The translations under genes were made by a program, and so were the position numbers. This document shows, one piece after another, positions 31,036 to 43,444 of a stretch of 64,000 nucleotides of DNA. Source of the stretch: Shinella yambaruensis (GTDB lineage Bacteria; Pseudomonadota; Alphaproteobacteria; Rhizobiales; Rhizobiaceae); assembly GCF_022899355.1 (NCBI RefSeq), contig NZ_JALJCK010000005.1:1-64000 (forward strand), read 5' to 3'. Each line of letters opens with the position of its first letter. Position 1 is the stretch's first letter. Below the pieces are notes generated by a model, which saw nothing but the letters and a program-made list of their open reading frames with translations, had not been told where the DNA came from and searched no databases.

Positions 31036-31878
31036 ATGCAGAAACATACGATCGCCCTGGCCGCGACGCTGGCCGTCGCCGCCGCCTTTGCGCCATCCGC
31101 ATCGGCCGGGGACAAGATCACCATCGCCACCGAGGGCGCCTTCCCGCCCTACAACCTCACCCGTCCCGACGGCACGCTCGACGGCTACGACGTCGAGCTC
31201 GGCAACGACCTGTGCACCCGCATGAAGATCGAATGCACCTTCATCGCCCAGGCCTTCGACGGCATGATCCCGGCGCTCACCGCCGGCAAGTTCGACGCGA
31301 TCATGGCCGGCATGTCCGCCACCGACAAGCGCAAGGAAATCATCGACTTCTCCATCTCCTACGGCAGCACCGGCCAGTCGTTCGCCACGCTGAAGGGAAG
31401 CCCGCTCACGAATCTGCCGATGACGGGCGAACTCTTCTCGCTGGCGACCAACGAAGCCGGCGCGCGCAAGGCCGCGGAGGAGCTGAAGCCGCTGCTCAAA
31501 GGCAAGGTCATCGGCGTGCAGACCGCGTCCATCGCCGCCCGCTTCATCGATGAATACCTGAAGGACGCGGTCGAAGTGCGCGAATACAAGACCACCGAGC
31601 AGCATGACCTCGACCTTGTCGCCGGACGTGTCGATCTCACGATGGCCTCGATGGGCTACCTGGTGACCGCGGTCGAGAAGCCGGCCAATTCCGACATGGT
31701 CATCGCCGGCCCGCGATTCCAGGGCGGCATGCTCGGCGCCGGCAGCTCCGTAGGCATGCGCAAGGAGGACACCGGCCTCAAGGCCAGATTCGACGAGGCG
31801 ATCGGTGCGGCGATCGCCGACGGCACCATCAAGCGCCTGTCGGAAAAGTGGTTCGGTTTCGATCTGACACCCCATTGA
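31036..31878 (+). CDS. Polar-amino-acid ABC substrate-binding protein, second copy
   Basis: This is a 280-residue family 3 binding protein with a signal peptide (MQKHTIALAATLAVAAAFAPSASA). It opens ITIATEGAFPPYNLTRPDGTLDGYDVELGNDLCTRMKIECTF and ends IKRLSEKWFGFDLTPH. It is a paralogue of the protein at 27863-28714, with the same length and tail but different pocket residues. It follows the ATPase after 34 bases with a GGGGA ribosome-binding site. Two binding proteins sharing one channel would widen the range of imported ligands. Confidence 0.92.
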   Translation: MQKHTIALAATLAVAAAFAPSASAGDKITIATEGAFPPYNLTRPDGTLDGYDVELGNDLCTRMKIECTFIAQAFDGMIPALTAGKFDAIMAGMSATDKRKEIIDFSISYGSTGQSFATLKGSPLTNLPMTGELFSLATNEAGARKAAEELKPLLKGKVIGVQTASIAARFIDEYLKDAVEVREYKTTEQHDLDLVAGRVDLTMASMGYLVTAVEKPANSDMVIAGPRFQGGMLGAGSSVGMRKEDTGLKARFDEAIGAAIADGTIKRLSEKWFGFDLTPH

Positions 31879-31900
31879 CGTCAACTTCTCATCATCTGCG

Positions 31901-31926
31901 GATCGCCGCCCTATGTGGCGGCGATC
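31901..31926. terminator. Perfect 10-bp stem-loop between convergent genes
   Basis: GATCGCCGCC and GGCGGCGATC flank the 6-base loop CTATGT. It lies just after the second binding-protein gene (plus) and before the end of the aldo/keto reductase gene (minus). The position and perfect stem suggest a bidirectional terminator, although no long T-run follows on either strand. Confidence 0.6.
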
Positions 31927-31964
31927 TCGTTCGATGCCCGTTAATGTCACTCCCGGCGCGCCTG

Positions 31965-33026
31965 TCAGGCGTCCTTCAGGTACGGTTCGATGAGGCTGAG
32001 GTCCGCATCGCCGAGGCGGCCGCTCGCGGTGTTCCTCTGATGCCAGTAGGGATATTGTAGCCAGGGCCGGCTGACATCGTCGAGCCGCTTGCGCTCCTCG
32101 GGGCTGAGCTTCAGCCCGGCGGCAGCGAGATTGTCCTTGAACTGGGCTTCCGTGCGCCCGCCGATGATCACCGAGGTCACGCCCTTCCGGCCGATCAGCC
32201 AGCTAAGGGCGACTTGGGCCGCCGAGACGCCGCGACCCTCCCCGATGTCGACGAGGGCATCGACGATGTTCCAGAGGCGGTCCTCGTCACGGATCGGCGG
32301 TTCGGTCCAGCCGGCGAACTGGCGTGTGCCTTCGGGCGCGGCCTGGTTGCGGCGGTGCTTGCCCGAGAGCAACCCTCCGGCGATCGGGCTCCAGACCAGG
32401 ACGCCAAGCCCCTGGTCGAGGCTGATCGGCAGCAGCTCGTTTTCCGCGTCGCGCGTTTCCAGCGTGTAGTGGATCTGCTGGCTGACGAAGCGTTGGTAGC
32501 GCTCCCTCTCGCTGACGCCGAGCGCCTTCATGATGTGCCAGCCGGAGAAGTTGGAGCAACCGATGTAACGGACCTTGCCCTGGCGCATGAGCGTATCGAG
32601 GGCTTCCAGCGTCTCCTCTAGCGGCGTCTGCCCGTCCCATTCGTGCAGTTGGTAGAGGTCGATGACGTCGGTCTTCATCCGTTTGAGGCTGGCCTCGCAG
32701 GCCCGGATGAGATGGTGGCGGGAAGAGCCCTCGTCATTCGGGCCCTCGCCCATCGGAAAGCGGGCCTTGGTGGCGACCAGCACGCCGTCCTTGCGCGGCC
32801 CGCCGATGATCTCGCCGAGGATCTCCTCGGAAGCGCCCTGCGAGTAGACGTCGGCGGTATCGATGAGGTTGACGCCGGCGTCGAGGCAAAGGTCGACCAG
32901 CCTGCGCGCATCAGCGACGCCGAGGTCGCCGACGGTCCTCGCCCAGCCCTTGCCGCCGAAGGTCATCGTGCCCATGGTGATTGTTGAGACTTTGAGGCCT
33001 GAACGGCCAAGCAGACGGTATTCCAT
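31965..33026 (-). CDS. Aldo/keto reductase
   Basis: This is a 353-residue TIM-barrel NADPH reductase. It starts MEYRLLGRSGLKVSTITMGTMTFGG. The catalytic tetrad is visible: Asp and Tyr in IDTADVYSQG, Lys in VATKARF and His in YQLHEWDG. The cofactor region SVIIGGRTEAQFKDNL is intact. ATG 33026 follows GGAGGA. The substrate is unknown. The adjacent upstream gene on the same strand is a truncated aldo/keto reductase joined to a LysR domain, so the two may derive from one redox locus. Confidence 0.92.
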   Translation of the reverse strand: MEYRLLGRSGLKVSTITMGTMTFGGKGWARTVGDLGVADARRLVDLCLDAGVNLIDTADVYSQGASEEILGEIIGGPRKDGVLVATKARFPMGEGPNDEGSSRHHLIRACEASLKRMKTDVIDLYQLHEWDGQTPLEETLEALDTLMRQGKVRYIGCSNFSGWHIMKALGVSERERYQRFVSQQIHYTLETRDAENELLPISLDQGLGVLVWSPIAGGLLSGKHRRNQAAPEGTRQFAGWTEPPIRDEDRLWNIVDALVDIGEGRGVSAAQVALSWLIGRKGVTSVIIGGRTEAQFKDNLAAAGLKLSPEERKRLDDVSRPWLQYPYWHQRNTASGRLGDADLSLIEPYLKDA

Positions 33027-33098
33027 CGGTAATCCTCCAGAAATCGGATGCGGGGACCGCGGCCGGACAGCAGCGCCGAGCCGCGGCATTGCGAGGCG

Positions 33099-34070
33099 TC
33101 AGGCGTGGCTGTCGAGGCCGCGCCAGAGATCGATACCACCTTCCATGGCACAGCGGTCGATATCCTTCAGCTCCTCGGCGGAGAAGGAGAGGTTCTTCAG
33201 GGCATCGAGGGAATCGTCCAACTGAGCGACATTGCGCGCGCCGATGAGGGCGGAGGTGATGCGCTGGTCGCGCAGCACCCAGGCGATGGCCATCTGCGCC
33301 AGCGATTGGCCACGGCGCTGCGCGATGGCGTCGAGCGCACGCACCCGGGCGAGATTGTCCTCGCTCAGCAGCTTTTCCTTGAAGGAGCCACCCCTGGCGG
33401 CGCGGGCGTCATCCGGGATGCCGTTCAGGTACTTCGAGGTGAGGAGGCCCTGCGCCAGCGGGGAGAAGGCGATGCAGCCGACGCCGAGTTCGTCGAGCGT
33501 ATCGAGCAGGCCATCCTCGATCCAGCGGTTCAGCATGGAATAGGAAGGCTGGTGGATGAGAAGGGGAACGCCTTCGGCGCGCATGCGCTCGGCCTCGCGG
33601 CTGCGTTCGGGGCCGTAGGAGGAGATCCCGACATAGAGTGCCTTGCCCTGGCGCACCATCTGCACGAGGGCGCCCATCGTTTCTTCCAGCGGCACGTCGA
33701 GGGTGGGACGATGGGAATAGAAGATATCCACGTAGTCGAGCTGCATGCGCTTGAGGCTCTGGTCGAGCGAAGCCATGAGATGCTTGCGCGAGCCGCTGAA
33801 CCGACCCTGCAGGTCTTCAAGACCGCTGCTGATGAGATCGAGGCCGGTGGCCACCTTTTCCGCAAGGGCGGCACCTGCAGCGGTCGGAGATACGCTGCGG
33901 CTCGTGCGGTTGAGCAGGCGGACACCGAGAGGCGCCTCCAGCGCCTTCATGCGATGACTGAGCGCCGATACAGAGACGTCAAGCTGATCGGCAGCCTTCC
34001 GGAAACTGCGGTGCCTGAGAATTGTCAGGAAAACGACCAAATCGGAAAGCTCGTTTCGGTTCGATGCCAT
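33099..34070 (-). CDS. Chimera: LysR DNA-binding domain fused in frame to truncated aldo/keto reductase
   Basis: This is a 323-residue open frame without interruption. Residues 1-90 are a complete LysR winged HTH and linker helix (FLTILRHRSFRKAADQLDVS, ALSHRMKALEAPLGVRLLNR, SVSPTAAG). From about residue 93 it becomes the C-terminal two thirds of a YghZ-type aldo/keto reductase (SRKHLMASLDQSLKRMQLDYVDIFYSHRP, then SALIGARNVAQLDDSLDAL). The reductase part has lost the N-terminal strands with the catalytic Asp, Tyr and Lys; only the His remains. The LysR part has lost its effector domain. It probably arose by deletion. If expressed, it would be a DNA-binding protein with a catalytically dead barrel. 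Start ATG 34070; an ATG at 34088 is also possible. Confidence 0.85.
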   Translation of the reverse strand: MASNRNELSDLVVFLTILRHRSFRKAADQLDVSVSALSHRMKALEAPLGVRLLNRTSRSVSPTAAGAALAEKVATGLDLISSGLEDLQGRFSGSRKHLMASLDQSLKRMQLDYVDIFYSHRPTLDVPLEETMGALVQMVRQGKALYVGISSYGPERSREAERMRAEGVPLLIHQPSYSMLNRWIEDGLLDTLDELGVGCIAFSPLAQGLLTSKYLNGIPDDARAARGGSFKEKLLSEDNLARVRALDAIAQRRGQSLAQMAIAWVLRDQRITSALIGARNVAQLDDSLDALKNLSFSAEELKDIDRCAMEGGIDLWRGLDSHA

Positions 34071-34313
34071 ATTGAAGCGCTCGGCCATCGCCCACTTGTC
34101 CCCCGTTACGAGATCCGTTCTGTTTCAAGTCGCGCAGGATTTCGGAGCGCGCCCCTTTTTGCGGCAGACAATCCGTTTAGCTGGAAAGACCAGGAACCGC
34201 GAGCCCGCCGGCATTTCCGGCGGGTCGCTTGCCAATCTCTGGACGAGGGATGTACCCTCGTCTGCATAAGGAGAAAGCCGGCCCGGGGAGGAACGGGTAC
34301 GGTGGGAACGACG

Positions 34314-35504
34314 ATGTTCGAGGAACACGATCCGTATCTCGTCGCACTTTCGGTGCTGGTCGCGATACTGGGAGGTTATACCGGTTTCGCCCTCGCGGCG
34401 CGGATCGGCAATTCGGTTTATACCGGCCGGCGGCTGCTTCTTTCCGGAGCGGCCGGCTTCCTGGCGGTCGGCATCTGGACGATGCATTTCATCGGCATGA
34501 TGGCCGCCCCCCTGCCGCAGGACGCCGCCTATCTCGTGCTGCCGACGCTCGTCTCCTTCCTCATCTGCGCCCTTGTCGTCGGCATTTCGCTCTATTTCGT
34601 CAGCATCGGCGGTCCCTCGCGCATGCGCGTGCTCTGGGCGGCGCTGCTTCTCGGCTTCGGCATCGCCTCCATGCATTATGTCGGCATCCATGGGCTCGCG
34701 GGGCCTTTCACCATCCGCCACGATTATCCGATGGTGGCGCTGTCGCTGCTGATCGCCATCGGCGCGGCCTATGGGGGCCTGCGCATCTATATCGCGCGCC
34801 ATGGCGGCCTGCGGCTGGCGCTCAGCGCCGTCGCCTTCGGCATCGCCGTTTCCGGCATGCACTATACGGCCATGTACGGCATGCATTTCGAGCCCGGCCC
34901 CGCTGGCGGGCATGCCATGGCCATGGACGGGCTCGTCGCCTCGCAGCAGGTCCTCTCGCTGGTCGTGGCGCTGCTCTGTTTCCTGGTCGCCGGCGGCTTC
35001 CTGCTTCTCCTCGTGCCGGAAGCGCATCTCAAGGCGGAGACCGAGCGGCCCGATCCGTCCGTTTCCGCCATCCGGGCGAACAGGGCGGCTCCGCTGGCCG
35101 GTCTCGGCCAGCCGGCCCGGCCATTGGTCACCAAGGTTCCCGTCGACGGCGCGGACGGCATCCGGTTCATCGAGACGGCCGATATCCGCAGCGTCCGCGC
35201 CGATGCACACTACACGCTCGTCCACGACGGGCAACGCGAGCGCATGTGCGCCTGGTCGATCTCGGAAATGGAATCGCAGCTCTGTCCCCAGACGTTCCTG
35301 CGCGTCCACCGCAGCCATATCGTCGCCGTGCCGCATATCGTGCTGATGCGCAAGGAGGGAGATGGCGCGGTCGTCGAGCTTGGCGGCGCCGTCCCGCATC
35401 TCGTTCCGGTGAGCCGGACGAAGATCTCCGAGCTGAAGGCGCGGCTGGGCCTCAGCCGGCGTGACGGCCCGCACCGGAACGATGCCATAGGTCAAAGTGC
35501 CTGA
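34314..35504 (+). CDS. MHYT-LytTR membrane sensor/regulator of the cox cluster (CoxC/CoxH-like)
   Basis: This protein has 396 residues. The N-terminal membrane MHYT domain has three repeats: TMHFIGMM (near 57), SMHYVGIH (near 120) and GMHYTAMYGMH (near 182). MHYT domains are proposed to bind copper and sense a diatomic gas. After a linker comes a LytTR DNA-binding domain (about 285-385, with FIETADIRSVRADAHYTLVHDG and FLRVHRSHIV). This architecture is that of CoxC/CoxH of CO oxidisers. It sits 127 bases before coxM on the same strand, so it probably controls coxMSL in response to CO. The start is preceded by GGTGGGA. Confidence 0.88.
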   Translation: MFEEHDPYLVALSVLVAILGGYTGFALAARIGNSVYTGRRLLLSGAAGFLAVGIWTMHFIGMMAAPLPQDAAYLVLPTLVSFLICALVVGISLYFVSIGGPSRMRVLWAALLLGFGIASMHYVGIHGLAGPFTIRHDYPMVALSLLIAIGAAYGGLRIYIARHGGLRLALSAVAFGIAVSGMHYTAMYGMHFEPGPAGGHAMAMDGLVASQQVLSLVVALLCFLVAGGFLLLLVPEAHLKAETERPDPSVSAIRANRAAPLAGLGQPARPLVTKVPVDGADGIRFIETADIRSVRADAHYTLVHDGQRERMCAWSISEMESQLCPQTFLRVHRSHIVAVPHIVLMRKEGDGAVVELGGAVPHLVPVSRTKISELKARLGLSRRDGPHRNDAIGQSA

Positions 35505-35631: not shown

Positions 35632-36495
35632 ATGATACCCGGCCCGTTCCAGTTCCATCGGCCGCAATCGGTTGCCGATGCGGTGAAACTGCTCTCCAGC
35701 CTCGGGGATGAAGCGCGTCCGCTTGCCGGCGGCCATAGCCTCGTTCCCATGATGAAGCTGCGCCTCGCCACGCCCGAGCATCTCGTCGACCTGCACGGCA
35801 TCGGCGCGCTGAAGGGCATCCGGCGCGAGGGCGACACGCTCGTCATCGGCGCCATGACCACCCAGCATGAGCTGGTGGCCTCGCCGGAGATCGCGGCGCT
35901 CGTGCCGATCGTCAAGGAAACCTCGCTGCAGATCGCCGAACCGCAGGTGCGCTATCGCGGCACGCTCGGCGGCAATGTCGCCAATGGCGATCCGGGCAAT
36001 GACATGCCGGGGCTGATGATGGCGCTCGGCGCGCGCTACCGGCTGGAAGGGCCGGACGGCGTACGCGACGTCGATGCCGTCGATTTCTACCAGGGCGCCT
36101 ATTTCACCGCGCTCGAGCCCGGCGAACTCCTGACCGAAATCGCGATCCCGGTTCCACCGTCCGGCCACGGCTACGCCTACGAGAAGCTGAAGCGGAAGAT
36201 CGGCGACTATGCGACGGCCGCCGCCGCGGTGGTGTTGACGCTCTCCGCCGGCAAGGTGGCGACCTGTCGCATCGGCCTCACCAACCTGTCCGAGACGCCG
36301 CTTCTCGCCGAGGACGCCGCCGCCTGCGTGATCGGCATCACGCTCGACGAGGCGACGCTGGCCAAGGCCGCCGACCTCGCCCGCGCCGTCATGCAGCCGG
36401 CCGCCGACGGGCGCGGCCCGGCCGAATACCGCACGCATGTCGGCGGCATCATGGTCATGCGGGCGCTGAAGCGCGCTGCGGCCAGAGCCGCTTAA
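35632..36495 (+). CDS. coxM: Carbon monoxide dehydrogenase medium (FAD) subunit CoxM
   Basis: This is a 287-residue FAD-binding subunit of the molybdenum hydroxylase family. FAD motifs AGGHSLVPMMKLRLA (near 32) and TLGGNVANGDPGNDMPG (near 112-128) are intact. It opens PGPFQFHRPQSVADAV, typical of CoxM. It passes electrons from the CoxS iron-sulfur clusters to the quinone pool. It is the first structural gene, and the order M-S-L matches CO oxidisers such as Oligotropha. Confidence 0.94.
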   Translation: MIPGPFQFHRPQSVADAVKLLSSLGDEARPLAGGHSLVPMMKLRLATPEHLVDLHGIGALKGIRREGDTLVIGAMTTQHELVASPEIAALVPIVKETSLQIAEPQVRYRGTLGGNVANGDPGNDMPGLMMALGARYRLEGPDGVRDVDAVDFYQGAYFTALEPGELLTEIAIPVPPSGHGYAYEKLKRKIGDYATAAAAVVLTLSAGKVATCRIGLTNLSETPLLAEDAAACVIGITLDEATLAKAADLARAVMQPAADGRGPAEYRTHVGGIMVMRALKRAAARAA

Positions 36496-36497
36496 AG

Positions 36498-36540
36498 CAT
36501 TTCCAGGAAAAGTGCGAAGCGGTTTTCCGTCCGGAAATGC
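36498..36540. repeat. Short inverted intergenic repeat of rhizobial type between coxM and coxS
   Basis: GCATTTCC and GGAAATGC are the outer arms, with a conserved inside including AAAGTGCGAAGCGGTTTTCC. This kind of small palindromic repeat is scattered between genes in many Rhizobiales. Inside an operon it would form an RNA hairpin and might adjust the CoxM:CoxS ratio. Confidence 0.6.
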
Positions 36541-36562
36541 GTAAAAACTCTAGGAGGAAACG

Positions 36563-37063
36563 ATGGCAAAGACCCATGTGACGATGCGGGTGAACGGCAG
36601 CGAGGTCGAGGGCCTTGTCGAGCCGCGCACGCTGCTCGTGCATTTCATCCGCGAAAATCTCGCCCTGACCGGCACCCATATCGGCTGCGAGACCACCCAT
36701 TGCGGCGCCTGCACCGTCGATCTCGATGGCATGTCGGTGAAAAGCTGCACCGTCTTCGCCGTGCAGGCCGAAGGTTCCGAGATCACCACCATCGAAGGCA
36801 TGGCCAATGCGGACGGCACGTTGTCGGCCCTCCAGGAGGGTTTCCGCCAGATGCACGGGCTGCAATGCGGTTTCTGTACGCCCGGCATGATCGTGCGCGC
36901 CCACCGCCTGCTGAAGGAAAATCCCAACCCGAGCGAAGAGGAGATCCGCTTCGGCATCGCCGGCAATCTCTGTCGCTGCACCGGCTACCAGAACATCGTC
37001 AAGGCGATCCAATACGCTGCCGCCAAGATCAACGGCACGGAGTTCAGGGAGGCTGCGGAATGA
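36563..37063 (+). CDS. coxS: Carbon monoxide dehydrogenase small (2Fe-2S) subunit CoxS
   Basis: This protein has 166 residues. The plant-type [2Fe-2S] cysteines are C42, C47, C50 and C62 ([16 protein letters not shown]). The second cluster has CGFC (C102, C105) and CRC (C137, C139) in [11 protein letters not shown]. All eight ligands are present. It has a strong AGGAGG site before the ATG. The stop overlaps the coxL start (ATGA). Confidence 0.96.
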
Positions 37064-39477
37064 ACGACATGACCATCACGCGCGCCGAGCGCGAGGCCAA
37101 ACTCGAAGGCATGGGCTGCAAGCGCAAGCGCGTCGAGGATATCCGGTTCACCCAGGGCAAGGGCAATTACGTCGACGACGTCAAGCTGCCCGGCATGCTG
37201 CACGGCGATTTCGTCCGCTCGCCGCATCCCCATGCCCGCATCAAATCGATCGACAAGGAGAAGGCGCTGAAAGTGCCGGGCGTGCTCGCCGTGCTGACGG
37301 CGGAGGACCTGAAGGGCGTCAACCTCGCCTGGATGCCGACGCTGGCCGGCGACGTGCAGATGGTGCTGGCGGACGGCAAGGTGCTGTTCCAGAACCAGGA
37401 AGTGGCCTTCGTCGTCGCCACCGACCGTTATGCGGCCGATGACGGCATCAATGCGGTCGAGGTGGAGTACGAGGCCCTACCTGTCCTCGTCGATCCGTTC
37501 CACGCCATGGACCCCGATGCACCGGTGTTGCGCGAGGACCTCGCAGGCAAGACGGAAGGCGCGCACGGCCCGCGAAGACACCACAACCACATCTTCGAAT
37601 GGACCGTCGGCGACCGGGATTTGACGGATGCCGCCTTTCGCAAGGCGGAGGTGACGATCAAGGAGATGATCTCCTATCACCGCACGCACCCCTCCCCGCT
37701 GGAGACCTGCCAGTGCCTGTGTTCGTTCGACAAGGTGAAGGGGGAACTGACGATCTACGGCACCTTCCAGGCGCCGCACGTCATCCGCACCGTCGTGGCG
37801 CTGATCGCCAAGATTCCCGAGCACAAGATCCATGTGATCGCGCCGGATATCGGCGGCGGCTTCGGTAACAAGGTCGGCGCCTATCCGGGTTATATCTGCG
37901 CCGCCGTCGCCTCGATCGTCACGGGGCGGCCGGTGAAATGGGTCGAGGACCGCATCGAGAACCTTTGCGCCACCTCGTTCGCCCGCGACTACCACATGAC
38001 GACCGAGATCGCCGCGACGAAGGAGGGCAAGGTCACGGGCCTGCGCGTGCATGTGCTCGCCGACCACGGCGCCTTCGATGCCTGTGCCGACCCGTCGAAA
38101 TGGCCGGCCGGCTTCTTCAACATCGTCACCGGCTCCTATGATTTCCCCACCGCCCATCTCGCGGTCGACGGCGTCTATACCAACAAGGCGCCGGGCGGCG
38201 TCGCCTATCGCTGCTCCTTCCGGGTGACGGAGGCGGCTTATTGCATCGAGCGGGCGATGGATATCCTCGCCCAGAAGCTCGGCATGGACCCGGCCGAACT
38301 GCGGCTGAAGAATTTCATCCGCCAGGAGCAGTTCCCCTATCACTCGGCGCTCGGCTGGGAATATGATTCCGGCGACTACCACACCGCCATGAAGAAGATG
38401 ATGGAGGTGGTGGATTATGCCGGCCTGCGCCGCGAGCAGGCGGAAAAGCGCGCGGCCTTCCAGCGCGGCGAGACCCGCGAGATCATGGGCCTCGGCATTT
38501 CCTTCTTCACCGAGATCGTCGGCGCCGGCCCGTCGAAGAACTGCGACATCCTCGGCATCGCCATGTTCGACAGCTGCGAGATCCGGCTCCACCCGACCGG
38601 TGCCGGCATCGCCCGCATGGGCACGAAAAGCCAGGGCCAGGGTCACGAGACGACCTGGGCGCAGATCATCGCCACGGAGATCGGCATTCCCGCCGACGAC
38701 ATCATGGTCGAGGAAGGCAACACCGACACCGCGCCCTACGGGCTCGGCACCTACGGTTCGCGCTCCACGCCCGTCGCGGGTGCCGCGATCGCCATGGCGG
38801 CGCGCAAGGTGAAGGCCAAGGCGCAGATGATCGCCGCCTACCGGCTGGAGGTGCACGAGGACGACCTCGAATGGGATATCGACGGTTTTCGCGTGAAGGG
38901 CCTGCCGGAAAAATTCCTCGGCATGAAGGACATCTGCTGGATCGCCTACAATGCGCCGCCGCCCGGCATGGAGCCGGGCCTGGAGGCGGTGAGCTATTAC
39001 GATCCGCCGAACATGACCTATCCCTTCGGCGCCTATCTCTGCGTCATGGATATCGACGTCGATACCGGCGTCTACAAGGTGCGCCGCTTCTACGCGCTCG
39101 ACGATTGCGGCACGCGCATCAACCCGATGATCATCGAGGGGCAGGTGCATGGCGGGCTGACGGAAGCCTTCGCGATCGCCATGGGCCAGGAGATCCGCTA
39201 CGACGAGAACGGCAATGTGGTGACCGGCTCGTTCATGGACTTCTTCCTGCCGACGGCGGTGGAAACGCCGCATTGGGAGACCGATTTCACCGTCACGCCC
39301 TCGCCGCACCACCCGATCGGCGCCAAGGGTGTCGGCGAAAGCCCGAATGTCGGCGGCGTGCCGGCCTTCTCCAACGCCGTCAACGACGCCTTCTCGTTCC
39401 TGGGATCGACGCATATCCAGATGCCGCACGATTTCTGGCGCAACTGGCAGGCGGCGAAGACGCTCGGCGCGGTGTAG
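37060..39477 (+). CDS. coxL: Aerobic carbon monoxide dehydrogenase large (Mo-Cu) subunit CoxL, form I
   Basis: This is an 805-residue catalytic subunit that oxidises CO to CO2 at a Mo-Cu-cytosine-dinucleotide centre. The active-site loop reads AYRCSFR (382-388); its cysteine (C385) is the copper ligand in form I enzymes. The molybdenum motifs GGGFGNK and the catalytic-glutamate region [13 protein letters not shown] are present. Form II relatives have AYRGAGR, so this is assigned as a true CO dehydrogenase. ATG 37060 overlaps coxS by four bases. Confidence 0.96.
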
Positions 39478-39511
39478 GATTGGTCCGATGCGCAGGTTTC
39501 GCCCCTCATCC

Positions 39512-39637
39512 CGCTGCCGCGACCTTCTCCCCGCAAGCGGGGAGAAGGGGCAGGAGGCTTGGCCTTCCTTCATCTTGTTTAGGGAAAACGGTGCATCGTT
39601 CTCCTTCTCCCCGCTTGCGGGGAGAAGGTGCCGGCAG
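39512..39637. repeat. RIME-like double palindrome between coxL and coxD
   Basis: Two copies of the palindrome, CCTTCTCCCCGC then AAGCGGGGAGAAGG (39523-39548) and its inverse with TTGC (39603-39628), sit in opposite orientation about 54 bases apart. Matching CTGCCG/CGGCAG ends lie outside. Two large related palindromes are the build of the rhizobial intergenic mosaic element RIME. It lies in the middle of the cox operon, so it would be transcribed and could act as an mRNA processing or stability element. Confidence 0.75.
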
Positions 39638-39669
39638 GCCTCCCGCCATGCGACGGATGGGGCCACGAC

Positions 39670-40548
39670 ATGAACACGCTCTCCCGCCCCGAAATCGGCG
39701 AGCGTTTGGCGAGCGCCGGCTACATTGCCGACCGCGACCTGACGGTCGCCCTCTCGCTGATGCAGATGCTCTCCCGCCCCCTGCTGCTGGAAGGTGAGGC
39801 CGGCGTCGGCAAGACGGCGGTCGCCTATGCCATCGCATCGGTGCACGAGACGGAACTGATCCGGCTGCAATGCTACGAGGGGCTGGACCAGTCGGCGGCG
39901 CTCTACGAGTGGAACTACCAGCGCCAGCTGCTGGCCATCCAGGCCCGGCAGGGCGAGGCGGCCGGCGGGCTGGAAGACGCGGTCTTTTCCGAAAAATACC
40001 TGATGGAACGTCCGCTGCTCGCGGCCATCCGCCGGCAGAAGGCGCCGGTGCTGCTGATCGACGAGATCGACCGGGCCGACGAGGAATTCGAAGCGTTCCT
40101 CCTGGAACTGCTCTCCGATTTCCAGGTCTCCATTCCCGAACTCGGCACGATCACCGCCACGACGATCCCGCATGTCGTGCTGACCTCGAACGGCACGCGC
40201 GAGCTTTCCGATGCGCTCCGGCGGCGCTGCCTCTATCACCATATCGACTATCCCGATGTCGAGCGCGAGGCGCGTATCATCCTCGCCCGCATCGAAGGGG
40301 CCGGCGCGGCGCTCGCCCTGCAGATCGCCCGCATGGTCGAGAACATCCGCAAGGAGGACCTGCGCAAGGTGCCGGGCGTCGCCGAAACGCTGGACTGGGC
40401 GGCGGTGCTCGTCGGCCTCGATATTGCCGACCTGAAGGACGATCCCGAAGCGGTGCACGAGACGCTGGCCTGCCTGCTCAAGACCCGCGAGGACAAGGCG
40501 CGCTTCCGCCGCGAAGTCACCGAGCGCCTGTTGGGGAGGGTGGCATGA
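39670..40548 (+). CDS. coxD: CoxD, MoxR-type AAA+ ATPase for CO dehydrogenase maturation
   Basis: This is a 292-residue AAA+ protein with P-loop GEAGVGKT (42-49), Walker B PVLLIDEIDRADEEFEAFLLELL and sensor 1 VVLTSNGTRELSDALRRRC. CoxD-type ATPases act with CoxE and CoxF to insert sulfur and copper into the Mo centre of CoxL. I chose ATG 39670 because earlier codons read through the RIME-like repeat. The stop overlaps coxE by four bases. Confidence 0.92.
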   Translation: MNTLSRPEIGERLASAGYIADRDLTVALSLMQMLSRPLLLEGEAGVGKTAVAYAIASVHETELIRLQCYEGLDQSAALYEWNYQRQLLAIQARQGEAAGGLEDAVFSEKYLMERPLLAAIRRQKAPVLLIDEIDRADEEFEAFLLELLSDFQVSIPELGTITATTIPHVVLTSNGTRELSDALRRRCLYHHIDYPDVEREARIILARIEGAGAALALQIARMVENIRKEDLRKVPGVAETLDWAAVLVGLDIADLKDDPEAVHETLACLLKTREDKARFRREVTERLLGRVA

Positions 40549-41729
40549 GCTGTTGCGGCACGCCCCTAACCCCGGAGGAATCGAGCGCGGTCGGCCGTCT
40601 CATCGCGGAAAAGCTGTCGGCCTTCCTGAAGACGCTGCGCGACAACGGCTTTTCCGTCGGGCTCGGCGAGGGCCGCGATGCCGCAGCGCTGATGGCCGCC
40701 GGCTATGCGGAAAAGCCCGGCCTGCTGCGCTCCGCCCTGAAACATCTGTTTTCCGCCCGCCGCAGCGAATGGGAGCGGTTCGACGGCATTTTCGATGCCT
40801 TCTGGCTGGGAAAACGCGTACGCAGCCGGAGCGCGGCTTCGGGACATGTCGGCCCAGGCCTGAAAGCCCTGGAGGGCGGCGGGGCGAAGGGCGGCGCGGT
40901 TTCTGATCAGGCCCCTGCCGACGGCGGAGAGGGCGTGGGCGGCGGCGAAAGCCGGATGGAGGGCGCCTCCGCCGTCGAGACGCTTTCCGGCATCGACCTC
41001 CGAAAACTCTCCGATCCGGCGGACATGGCGCGGGCGCATGACATCGCCGCCGATCTCGCGCGGGCGATGCGCACGCGGCTCACCCGCCGCGATCTCGCCC
41101 GCCGGCGCGGCTACCGCATCGACCTGCGCCGCACGATCCACGGCAATATCGGCCATGGCGGCGTGCCGCTGGATCTCGTCCGGCGCCGGCGCAAGGAAAA
41201 GCCGCTGCGCCTCGTCATGCTGCTCGACGCCTCCGGCTCGATGACGCCCTATACGGGGCTCTTCCTGCGCTTCATGCATGGCGTGCTCGACGCCTTTCGC
41301 GAGTCGGAGGCCTTCCTCTTCCACACCCGGCTTGCCCATGTCTCCGACGCCATGAAGGAGCGCGATGCGCAACGCGCCCTCGACCGGCTGTCCATGATGG
41401 CGGAGGGCGCCGGCGGCGGCACGCGCATCGGCGAATGCCTCGCCACCTTCAACCGCTGGCATGCCGCCCGCGTCATCCATTCGCGCACCTGCGTGATGAT
41501 CGTCTCGGACGGCTACGAGACGGGCGATGCCGCGCAGCTGGCTCGGGAGATGGCGGCGCTGCGCCGCCGCTGCCGGCGTATTGCCTGGCTGAACCCGATG
41601 ATGGGCTGGGACGGCTATGCGCCGGAGGCGGCCGGCATCCGCGCCGCGCTGCCGTTCGTCGACCTGCATGCGCCGGCCAATACGCTCGAAAGCCTTGCGG
41701 CGCTCGAACCCTATCTTGCGAAACTCTGA
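40545..41729 (+). CDS. coxE: CoxE, VWA-domain protein for CO dehydrogenase maturation
   Basis: This is a 394-residue protein. The C-terminal von Willebrand A-type domain has the metal site DASGS (228-232), and later MIVSDGYETGD. An Arg-rich stretch lies just before it. A low-complexity Gly/Ala-rich segment (about 95-140) separates the N-terminal helical part. It overlaps coxD by four bases, as AAA+/VWA partner genes often do. The pair is expected to work as a MoxR-VWA chaperone. Confidence 0.92.
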   Translation: MSCCGTPLTPEESSAVGRLIAEKLSAFLKTLRDNGFSVGLGEGRDAAALMAAGYAEKPGLLRSALKHLFSARRSEWERFDGIFDAFWLGKRVRSRSAASGHVGPGLKALEGGGAKGGAVSDQAPADGGEGVGGGESRMEGASAVETLSGIDLRKLSDPADMARAHDIAADLARAMRTRLTRRDLARRRGYRIDLRRTIHGNIGHGGVPLDLVRRRRKEKPLRLVMLLDASGSMTPYTGLFLRFMHGVLDAFRESEAFLFHTRLAHVSDAMKERDAQRALDRLSMMAEGAGGGTRIGECLATFNRWHAARVIHSRTCVMIVSDGYETGDAAQLAREMAALRRRCRRIAWLNPMMGWDGYAPEAAGIRAALPFVDLHAPANTLESLAALEPYLAKL

Positions 41730-41740
41730 GGGAGGTCGCG

Positions 41741-42571
41741 ATGAACGCCCATGTCGATGTGATGGATCTCGCCAATCGCCTCAAATCCGCCGAGGAAGCC
41801 TTCGTGCTCGCCACCGTCGTGCGCACCGTCTCGGTGACCGCGGCCAAGGCCGGCGCCAAGGCGGTGATCCGCCCGGACGGCACGATCGTCGCCGGCTGGA
41901 TCGGCGGCGGCTGCGCCCGCGGCGCGGTGCTGCGTGCCGCCCGGCAGGCGCTGATGGACGGCAAGGCGCGGCTGATCTCGGTGCAGCCGAAGGAGCTTCT
42001 GGCCGAACACGGCGTTGCGGCCGGCGAATTGCGCGAAGGCATCCAGTTCTCCGCCAACATGTGCCCCAGCAAGGGCACGATGGACATCTTCATCGAGCCG
42101 GTGCTGCCGCGCCCGGCGCTCGTCGTGTTCGGGGCGAGCCCCGTCGCGATGGCGGTGGTGGAACAGGCCGCCCTGCTCGGCTTCCACATCACGCTCGCCG
42201 CACCCGCCGCCGACCGCGCCGCGCCGCCTATGGCTGATGTCGTGGTGGATGGATTTGCCATTGCCGAACCGCCGGTCGGCAAGATTTTCGCGCTGGTCGC
42301 CACCCAGGGCAGCGGCGACCTCGCCGCACTCCAGGCGGCGCTCGCCCTTGAGGCCGAATATTACGGTTTCGTCGGAAGCGGGCGGAAGATGGCCGCGCTC
42401 AAGGCCGATCTGTCCCACGCGGACATTCCGCCCGAGCGGCTCGACCGGATCAAGGGACCGGCAGGCCTCGATCTCGGCGCCATCACGCCGGAGGAAATCG
42501 CCCTGTCCATCCTCGCCGAAATTCTCGTCATCCGCCGCCGCGACCAGCGTGGCGACACCACCACAGCCTGA
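41741..42571 (+). CDS. coxF: CoxF, XdhC-family maturation factor
   Basis: This is a 276-residue XdhC/CoxI-family protein. The N-terminal XdhC_CoxI domain has VVRTVSVTAAKAGAKAVIRPDGTIVAGWIGGGCARG. The C-terminal Rossmann domain has LVVFGASPVAMAVV, YYGFVGSGRKMAAL and the tail GAITPEEIALSILAEIL. XdhC-type proteins handle the molybdenum cofactor before insertion. It follows coxE by 11 bases with a GGAGG site. Confidence 0.92.
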   Translation: MNAHVDVMDLANRLKSAEEAFVLATVVRTVSVTAAKAGAKAVIRPDGTIVAGWIGGGCARGAVLRAARQALMDGKARLISVQPKELLAEHGVAAGELREGIQFSANMCPSKGTMDIFIEPVLPRPALVVFGASPVAMAVVEQAALLGFHITLAAPAADRAAPPMADVVVDGFAIAEPPVGKIFALVATQGSGDLAALQAALALEAEYYGFVGSGRKMAALKADLSHADIPPERLDRIKGPAGLDLGAITPEEIALSILAEILVIRRRDQRGDTTTA

Positions 42572-42584
42572 AAGGACATTTCTC

Positions 42585-43049
42585 ATGGACATGAACGGCA
42601 GCGAACGGATCGAAGCCCCGGTGCAGACCGTCTGGCAGGCGCTGAACGATCCGGAGATCCTGCGCCAGTGCATTCCCGGTTGCGAGACGCTGGAAAAGAC
42701 CTCCGACACGGAGATGACGGCGACCGTCGCGCTGAAGGTCGGGCCGGTGAAGGCGCGCTTCCAGGGCACGGTCCAGCTCCTGAACCTCGACCCGCCGCAT
42801 TCCTACACGATCAGCGGCGAAGGCAAGGGCGGCATGGTCGGCTTCGCCAAGGGCGGCGCGGATGTGGCGCTCGCCGAAGACGGGCCGGATGCGACCCTGC
42901 TCACCTATGTCGTCAAGGCCGAGGTCGGTGGCAAGATCGCCCAGCTCGGCAGCCGGCTGATCGATTCCACGGCGAAAAAACTGGCGGCGCAGTTCTTTGC
43001 CGACTTTACTCAGAAGGTCGCAAGGGTGCGGGAAGAGATTGCGAGTTGA
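42585..43049 (+). CDS. coxG: CoxG, SRPBCC-fold protein of the CO dehydrogenase system
   Basis: This is a 154-residue SRPBCC-fold protein with MNGSERIEAPVQTVWQALNDPEILRQCIPGCETLE and the C-terminal GSRLIDSTAKKLAAQFFADF. It is CoxG-like but short: many CoxG proteins extend past 200 residues with a C-terminal tail, absent here. CoxG has been linked to membrane anchoring and quinone transfer for CO dehydrogenase. It closes the cox operon. Composition changes sharply right after it. Confidence 0.9.
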   Translation: MDMNGSERIEAPVQTVWQALNDPEILRQCIPGCETLEKTSDTEMTATVALKVGPVKARFQGTVQLLNLDPPHSYTISGEGKGGMVGFAKGGADVALAEDGPDATLLTYVVKAEVGGKIAQLGSRLIDSTAKKLAAQFFADFTQKVARVREEIAS

Positions 43050-43444
43050 GCCTCTAATGCCATGAAAACGCCGGCAACAACGAACCGAGCTATTGAAACC
43101 ATTGCGGCGCGAGAAATGAAGAATGATACAACAAAAGCCTTGCCAACCGGGTCGTTCCACATATGCGTCAAAGCCAAAAGGGGCCTCTCCCTCTGGTTCC
43201 ATCATGTCAGCTCGATTGGGCCCGGAGCTGTCGAGCAGAGCGGCGGTGATCATGTACACCATGCCCAAGACTGGCGAACTCTTCGATTTAGAAGGCAGGA
43301 GCCATAACGTAAGTCCACATAGCGTTGCCGGGGCGTGAGCCGAGCCATTCCGCTGTGAGTGTTGAACCGTTGTCTCAGCAAGGTGCGTCATCCACATTGA
43401 AGGCTCGTTCTGCAAAGCTCCATAATGCGGCGGCCAAGCTGCGA
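43050..43444. other. Low-GC junction with unidentified remnant
   Basis: I see no intact gene. On the minus strand about 43120-43260 reads as part of a protein (MVYMITAALLDSS, then EGEAPFGFDAYVERP). It continues after a frame change into a hydrophobic stretch (VGKAFVVSFFISRAAM). I do not recognise the family. The stretch is clearly less GC-rich than the cox genes and marks the border of the hydroxyquinol island. Confidence 0.4.

Follow-up and report, generated by a model that had tools for sequence, protein, structure and literature searches.

An in-frame LysR-aldo/keto reductase chimera in Shinella yambaruensis, the probable remnant of a recently deleted lysR-mgrA gene pair

The 64,000 nucleotides of DNA from the soil bacterium Shinella yambaruensis analyzed here (the window) contain a real chimera of a LysR regulator and an aldo/keto reductase. 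An adjacent lysR-mgrA pair was very probably knocked out by one recent deletion of ~1.08 kb that left a remnant still translatable. Deletion through a short homology (GCGGC) would have joined the start of lysR to the end of mgrA, and the joint would lie in frame by chance, with no selection needed for the open frame. With the joint in frame, translation of the remnant would be retained and transcription could run on into the intact neighboring gene akr2. The likely effect would be that both mgrA and LysR control are lost, with akr2 still expressible behind the old lysR start. The locus would be a clean example of a short-homology deletion creating an in-frame fusion, which automatic annotation could take for either a regulator or a reductase. 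A working product would represent a new regulator architecture observed soon after its origin.

The fused frame and its two halves

An open reading frame scan placed the fused gene on the minus strand, which the earlier note on this DNA had not given, as a single open frame with zero inner stops (33099-34088). The frame counts 329 codons from its first ATG at 34088 and 323 codons from the ATG at 34070. The latter is probably the native start, since the LysR start annotated in Shinella sp. H4-D48 aligns with it. The plus strand is also open across the fused frame (33048-35504, 818 codons), so that a long open frame is by itself weak evidence in this DNA and the case for a chimera is carried by the domain matches. 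The earlier description of one 323-codon frame, with a LysR helix-turn-helix (HTH) followed by the C-terminal two thirds of a YghZ-type reductase, was confirmed by the frame scan together with Pfam.

The LysR half contains an HTH_1 domain (PF00126) at residues 14-72 (33873-34049, minus strand) that scored 71 bits (E 8.1e-20, cut-off 26.6), versus 75.7 and 73.6 bits in two intact LysR orthologues. Both Pfam and alignment indicate that the HTH and linker region is complete, and over 91-92 residues this N-terminal part is 84-86% identical to the LysR proteins of five intact tandems, as in LysR-type regulators. The difference from these regulators lies in the LysR_substrate domain (PF03466), which both of the scanned intact orthologues possess (118 and 123.4 bits) whereas the Pfam scan found none in the fused protein. 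The proposed loss of the C-terminal ligand-binding domain was thus borne out, and the product would be unable to sense the LysR ligand. At the position of Pro53 in the HTH, 21 distinct LysR sequences carry Arg (10), Thr (4) or another residue and never Pro; these come from the LysR genes of fetched loci, a small sample, and we take no inference from Pro53.

The reductase half comprises the C-terminal two thirds of a YghZ/MgrA-type aldo/keto reductase (33102-33797, minus strand). Its Aldo_ket_red match spans residues 95-313 (E 5.4e-54) and covers the profile from position 78 to 289 of 291, which falls short of a complete (beta/alpha)8 barrel. The best NCBIfam model was L-glyceraldehyde 3-phosphate reductase (NF007388), whose cut-off of 448 bits the match missed with a score of 299.1. 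The best-matching solved chains were 9nz6 and 3n6q, and residue 98 of the fused protein aligns with residue 110 of the latter in an alignment that extends to 3n6q residue 342. An excerpt of the published description of 3n6q, E. coli YghZ, presents it as a tetramer with a TIM barrel and a putative tetrad of Asp61, Tyr66, Lys97, and His138 (PMC3290569). Because the alignment begins only at YghZ residue 110, the His of the catalytic tetrad alone remains, as His126 of the fused protein, in agreement with the earlier claim that Asp, Tyr, and Lys had been lost and His kept. The Asp..Tyr and Lys motifs occur in the same open frame in all 129 mgrA loci compared (duplicates included) and are missing from the fused frame. 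In the aldo/keto reductase fold, strands 2, 3, and 4 carry Asp, Lys, and His at their ends, and on these positions the lost part would hold barrel strands 1-3. With five of eight strands and one of four catalytic residues, the product would probably not fold into a working reductase.

Within the YghZ/MgrA/AKR14 family, the retained two thirds are 82-87% identical to the MgrA proteins of the five intact tandems, the differences being the lost first third and the score below the NF007388 cut-off. In addition, one codon is missing after residue 168 of the fused frame (33582-33587, minus strand), where a residue is present in all 122 other distinct homologues; two of these 122 each carry a separate internal loss at another position. 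The one-codon loss points to loosened constraint in the reductase half, although it is a single event that may predate the fusion.

The intact tandem and the deletion joint

The same-strand tandem lysR, mgrA (YghZ type), and akr2 is intact in three genomes of the same genus (G011, G019, and G009) and in G023, which belongs to another genus of the family. This order is also annotated in Shinella sp. H4-D48 and S. sumterensis; in both, a gene for fructose bisphosphate aldolase precedes it. A same-strand lysR lies upstream of mgrA in 12 distinct loci (17 rows), including Brucella rhizosphaerae (L040) and Mesorhizobium norvegicum (L041), among 133 mgrA-match loci that include duplicates and short ones, each place being counted once for the 12. 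In G011 (L121 8930-10731), translations show apparent ABC transporter permeases, and not an aldolase, encoded upstream of the intact lysR, so the tandem is found in more than one context. Its third gene, the second aldo/keto reductase akr2 (31965-33026, minus strand, 353 codons), is intact in the window according to Pfam and identity comparison.

The window presents this tandem order without the spacer and without the parts of the two genes next to it, the final two thirds of lysR and the initial third of mgrA, and it aligns to the intact loci on both sides of a single skipped stretch. Arithmetic on the alignments to five intact loci gave a skipped length of 1077 bp relative to G011, G019, and S. 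sumterensis, 1085 bp relative to H4-D48, and 1105 bp relative to G023. The joint lies at 33792-33799 (minus strand), within the interval 33780-33815 where it had been predicted, and ~5 bp at this position, GCGGC or a one-base variant of it, are common to both parent sequences. The parents are thus adjacent genes on the same strand, intact in relatives, and separated from the fused state by one contiguous loss. The idea of one deletion across lysR and a yghZ-like neighbor was upheld by the intact tandems, while the guessed size of 600-1000 bases was too small. Deletion-born fusions of neighboring genes are a kind already known, and the present case, in which neighbors in tandem on one strand meet at a few shared bases, showed no difference from it. 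Two of the five deletion lengths are not multiples of three, which indicates that the ancestral spacer differs in phase between loci and makes an in-frame joint a one-in-three event, as is expected of random deletions.

No close copy of the lost stretch was found in the rest of the genome, where the best match is a 74% mgrA paralogue on contig 1. A repeat search of 31700-34500 returned nothing beyond short imperfect repeats. A scan for promoter and terminator consensus sequences (chance means 0.4 and 1.7) found no promoter before the fused gene; its one promoter-like site lies within akr2, and it returned no terminator. On the upstream side of the start codon, the alignment with G011 ends at 34073.

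Constraint on the retained halves and searches for further fusions

Decay by substitution was tested for and not found, as the retained halves are conserved as in intact genes both in omega and in conserved columns. Over both halves (314 codons) the branch omega of the fused gene was 0.050 versus a background of 0.043; these estimates come from our own code rather than codeml, and synonymous changes approach saturation, most strongly in the lysR half. Fixing omega for the 314 codons at 0.03, 0.08, 0.12, and 1.0 cost 1.2, 0.9, 2.7, and 9.7 log units, respectively, and by interpolation the upper 95% bound lies near 0.10. If constraint is assumed to have held earlier, arithmetic on this bound leaves at most about 6% of the branch free of constraint. 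Taken separately, the reductase half had an omega of 0.057 (background 0.048), the intact akr2 0.046 (background 0.037), and the lysR half 0.044 (background 0.020; 89 codons with saturated synonymous changes). In columns that are at least 95% conserved, the reductase half deviates once (mean 1.15 in 110 distinct homologues) and the lysR half not at all (10 others compared); in columns at least 90% conserved, the deviations are two (mean 2.10) and one (mean 3.10), respectively. This conservation would fit a young deletion and a product still in use alike. The earlier inference of recent origin or selection was therefore fair, the missing substitution decay agreeing with either.

Among the matches listed, no second match covering both halves was found in 100 relatives (52 matching at E up to 1e-40), and no second fusion in 20 other genomes of the genus, all matching at 1e-38. 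Likewise, no second fusion was present among the matches listed for 396 other genomes of an order sample (122 matching at 1e-75), 393 others of a family sample (17 matching at 1e-100), and 397 others of a phylum sample (8 matching at 1e-95). The samples overlap, at most five candidates were scored per genome in these last three, and fusions of more distant partners would fall under these score cut-offs. Of 593 confirmed loci, the 80 listed all lack a match before residue 69. In plasmid records, coverage of 80% of the query was reached by none of the 110 that matched at E up to 1e-30. By coverage count alone, one place covered at least 80% of the query in 14 of 4121 records in a looser plasmid search (E up to 1e-5), and a joint-spanning query (E up to 1e-3) reached at least 80% coverage in 281 of 1865 records. 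One listed row of the latter search, H85 (query residues 2-109, 45% identity), looks like an ordinary LysR match extending past the joint. A literature search yielded no LysR-aldo/keto reductase fusion among the matches listed. The search for the same domain order elsewhere, suggested with the earlier note, thus returned the fusion in one genome, the single genome of its species covered here, and in none else above the score cut-offs, and above these cut-offs the architecture was not found to be kept in more than one lineage, as a chimeric regulator family would be.

Competing readings and genomic surroundings

An assembly error at the joint, with lysR and mgrA existing as separate genes, is barely credible, and we rejected this reading as unlikely. 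The genome is a draft of 34 contigs with a contamination estimate of 4.42, which speaks for an error, but the joint lies inside a contig of 516,813 bases, the missing piece is without a close copy elsewhere in the assembly, and the shared sequence of ~5 bp is far exceeded by assembler word lengths. A stripped LysR that acts through its HTH alone, for instance by repressing its own promoter and akr2 in an unregulated way while the reductase tail is inert, has a very low probability. Its HTH and linker region are complete and a LysR gene usually stands beside its target genes, which would favor such a role. LysR proteins, however, generally need their C-terminal domain for tetramers and tight DNA binding, and with the upstream region not conserved with G011 beyond 34073 the old binding site may be gone.

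The new regulator architecture proposed in the earlier note, in which a dimer formed by the LysR HTH and linker helix binds DNA while the reductase remnant senses a cofactor or substrate, also appears very unlikely. MocR regulators are a large family in which the whole PLP-enzyme fold is kept. As far as excerpts of the literature describe them, they likewise place an HTH (of GntR type) ahead of an enzyme-derived fold (aminotransferase), and they show that such a combination can work. The full HTH_1 domain, the open frame, the conservation of both halves, and a C-terminal segment aligned as far as 3n6q residue 342 are consistent with a functional chimera. On the other hand, here the barrel is partial, its first part being gone together with Asp, Tyr, and Lys, the enzyme half carries a unique codon loss, and the fusion occurs in one genome with no like fusion above the search cut-offs. 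The proposal was left unsupported by these observations and by an open frame that chance would provide in one of three deletions. Extremely unlikely is a newborn chimera whose LysR linker helix pairs two half-barrels that fold together and relay to the HTH a signal from a redox cofactor or an aldehyde. The recent knock-out is the preferred reading, as loss of function is favored by the missing first barrel part, the unique codon loss, and a 62% identical paralogue. The lack of substitution decay counts against it, so that some use of the product after the fusion is conceivable.

The paralogue (G000:C1:164487-165167), whose identity of 62% refers to the broken reductase, is intact and without stops, and it may cover for the lost enzyme. 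Among the matches listed, relatives at 60-63% occur in 18 of the other 20 genomes in the genus, G009 and G019 being the exceptions.

The fused frame and akr2 together occupy a 2.3-kb stretch (31927-34224) flanked by matches to two plasmids of Shinella sp. HZN7. Specifically, the flank at 23945-31926 matches pShin-01 (94.5%) and that at 34225-43053 matches pShin-03 (95.5%), so that, compared with HZN7, the reductase stretch sits at the joint of a rearrangement. What comes next on pShin-01 in HZN7 is mostly found on another contig (G000:C6:14122-20065). The gene at 34225-35504 matches an annotated MHYT-domain protein of HZN7, and the C-terminal part of its product presumably resembles a LytTR DNA-binding domain. 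Beyond it, at 35632-43053, lies a carbon-monoxide-dehydrogenase-like cluster, named by the HZN7 annotation, with genes for subunit M, a 2Fe-2S protein, the large subunit, MoxR, VWA, XdhC, and subunit G.
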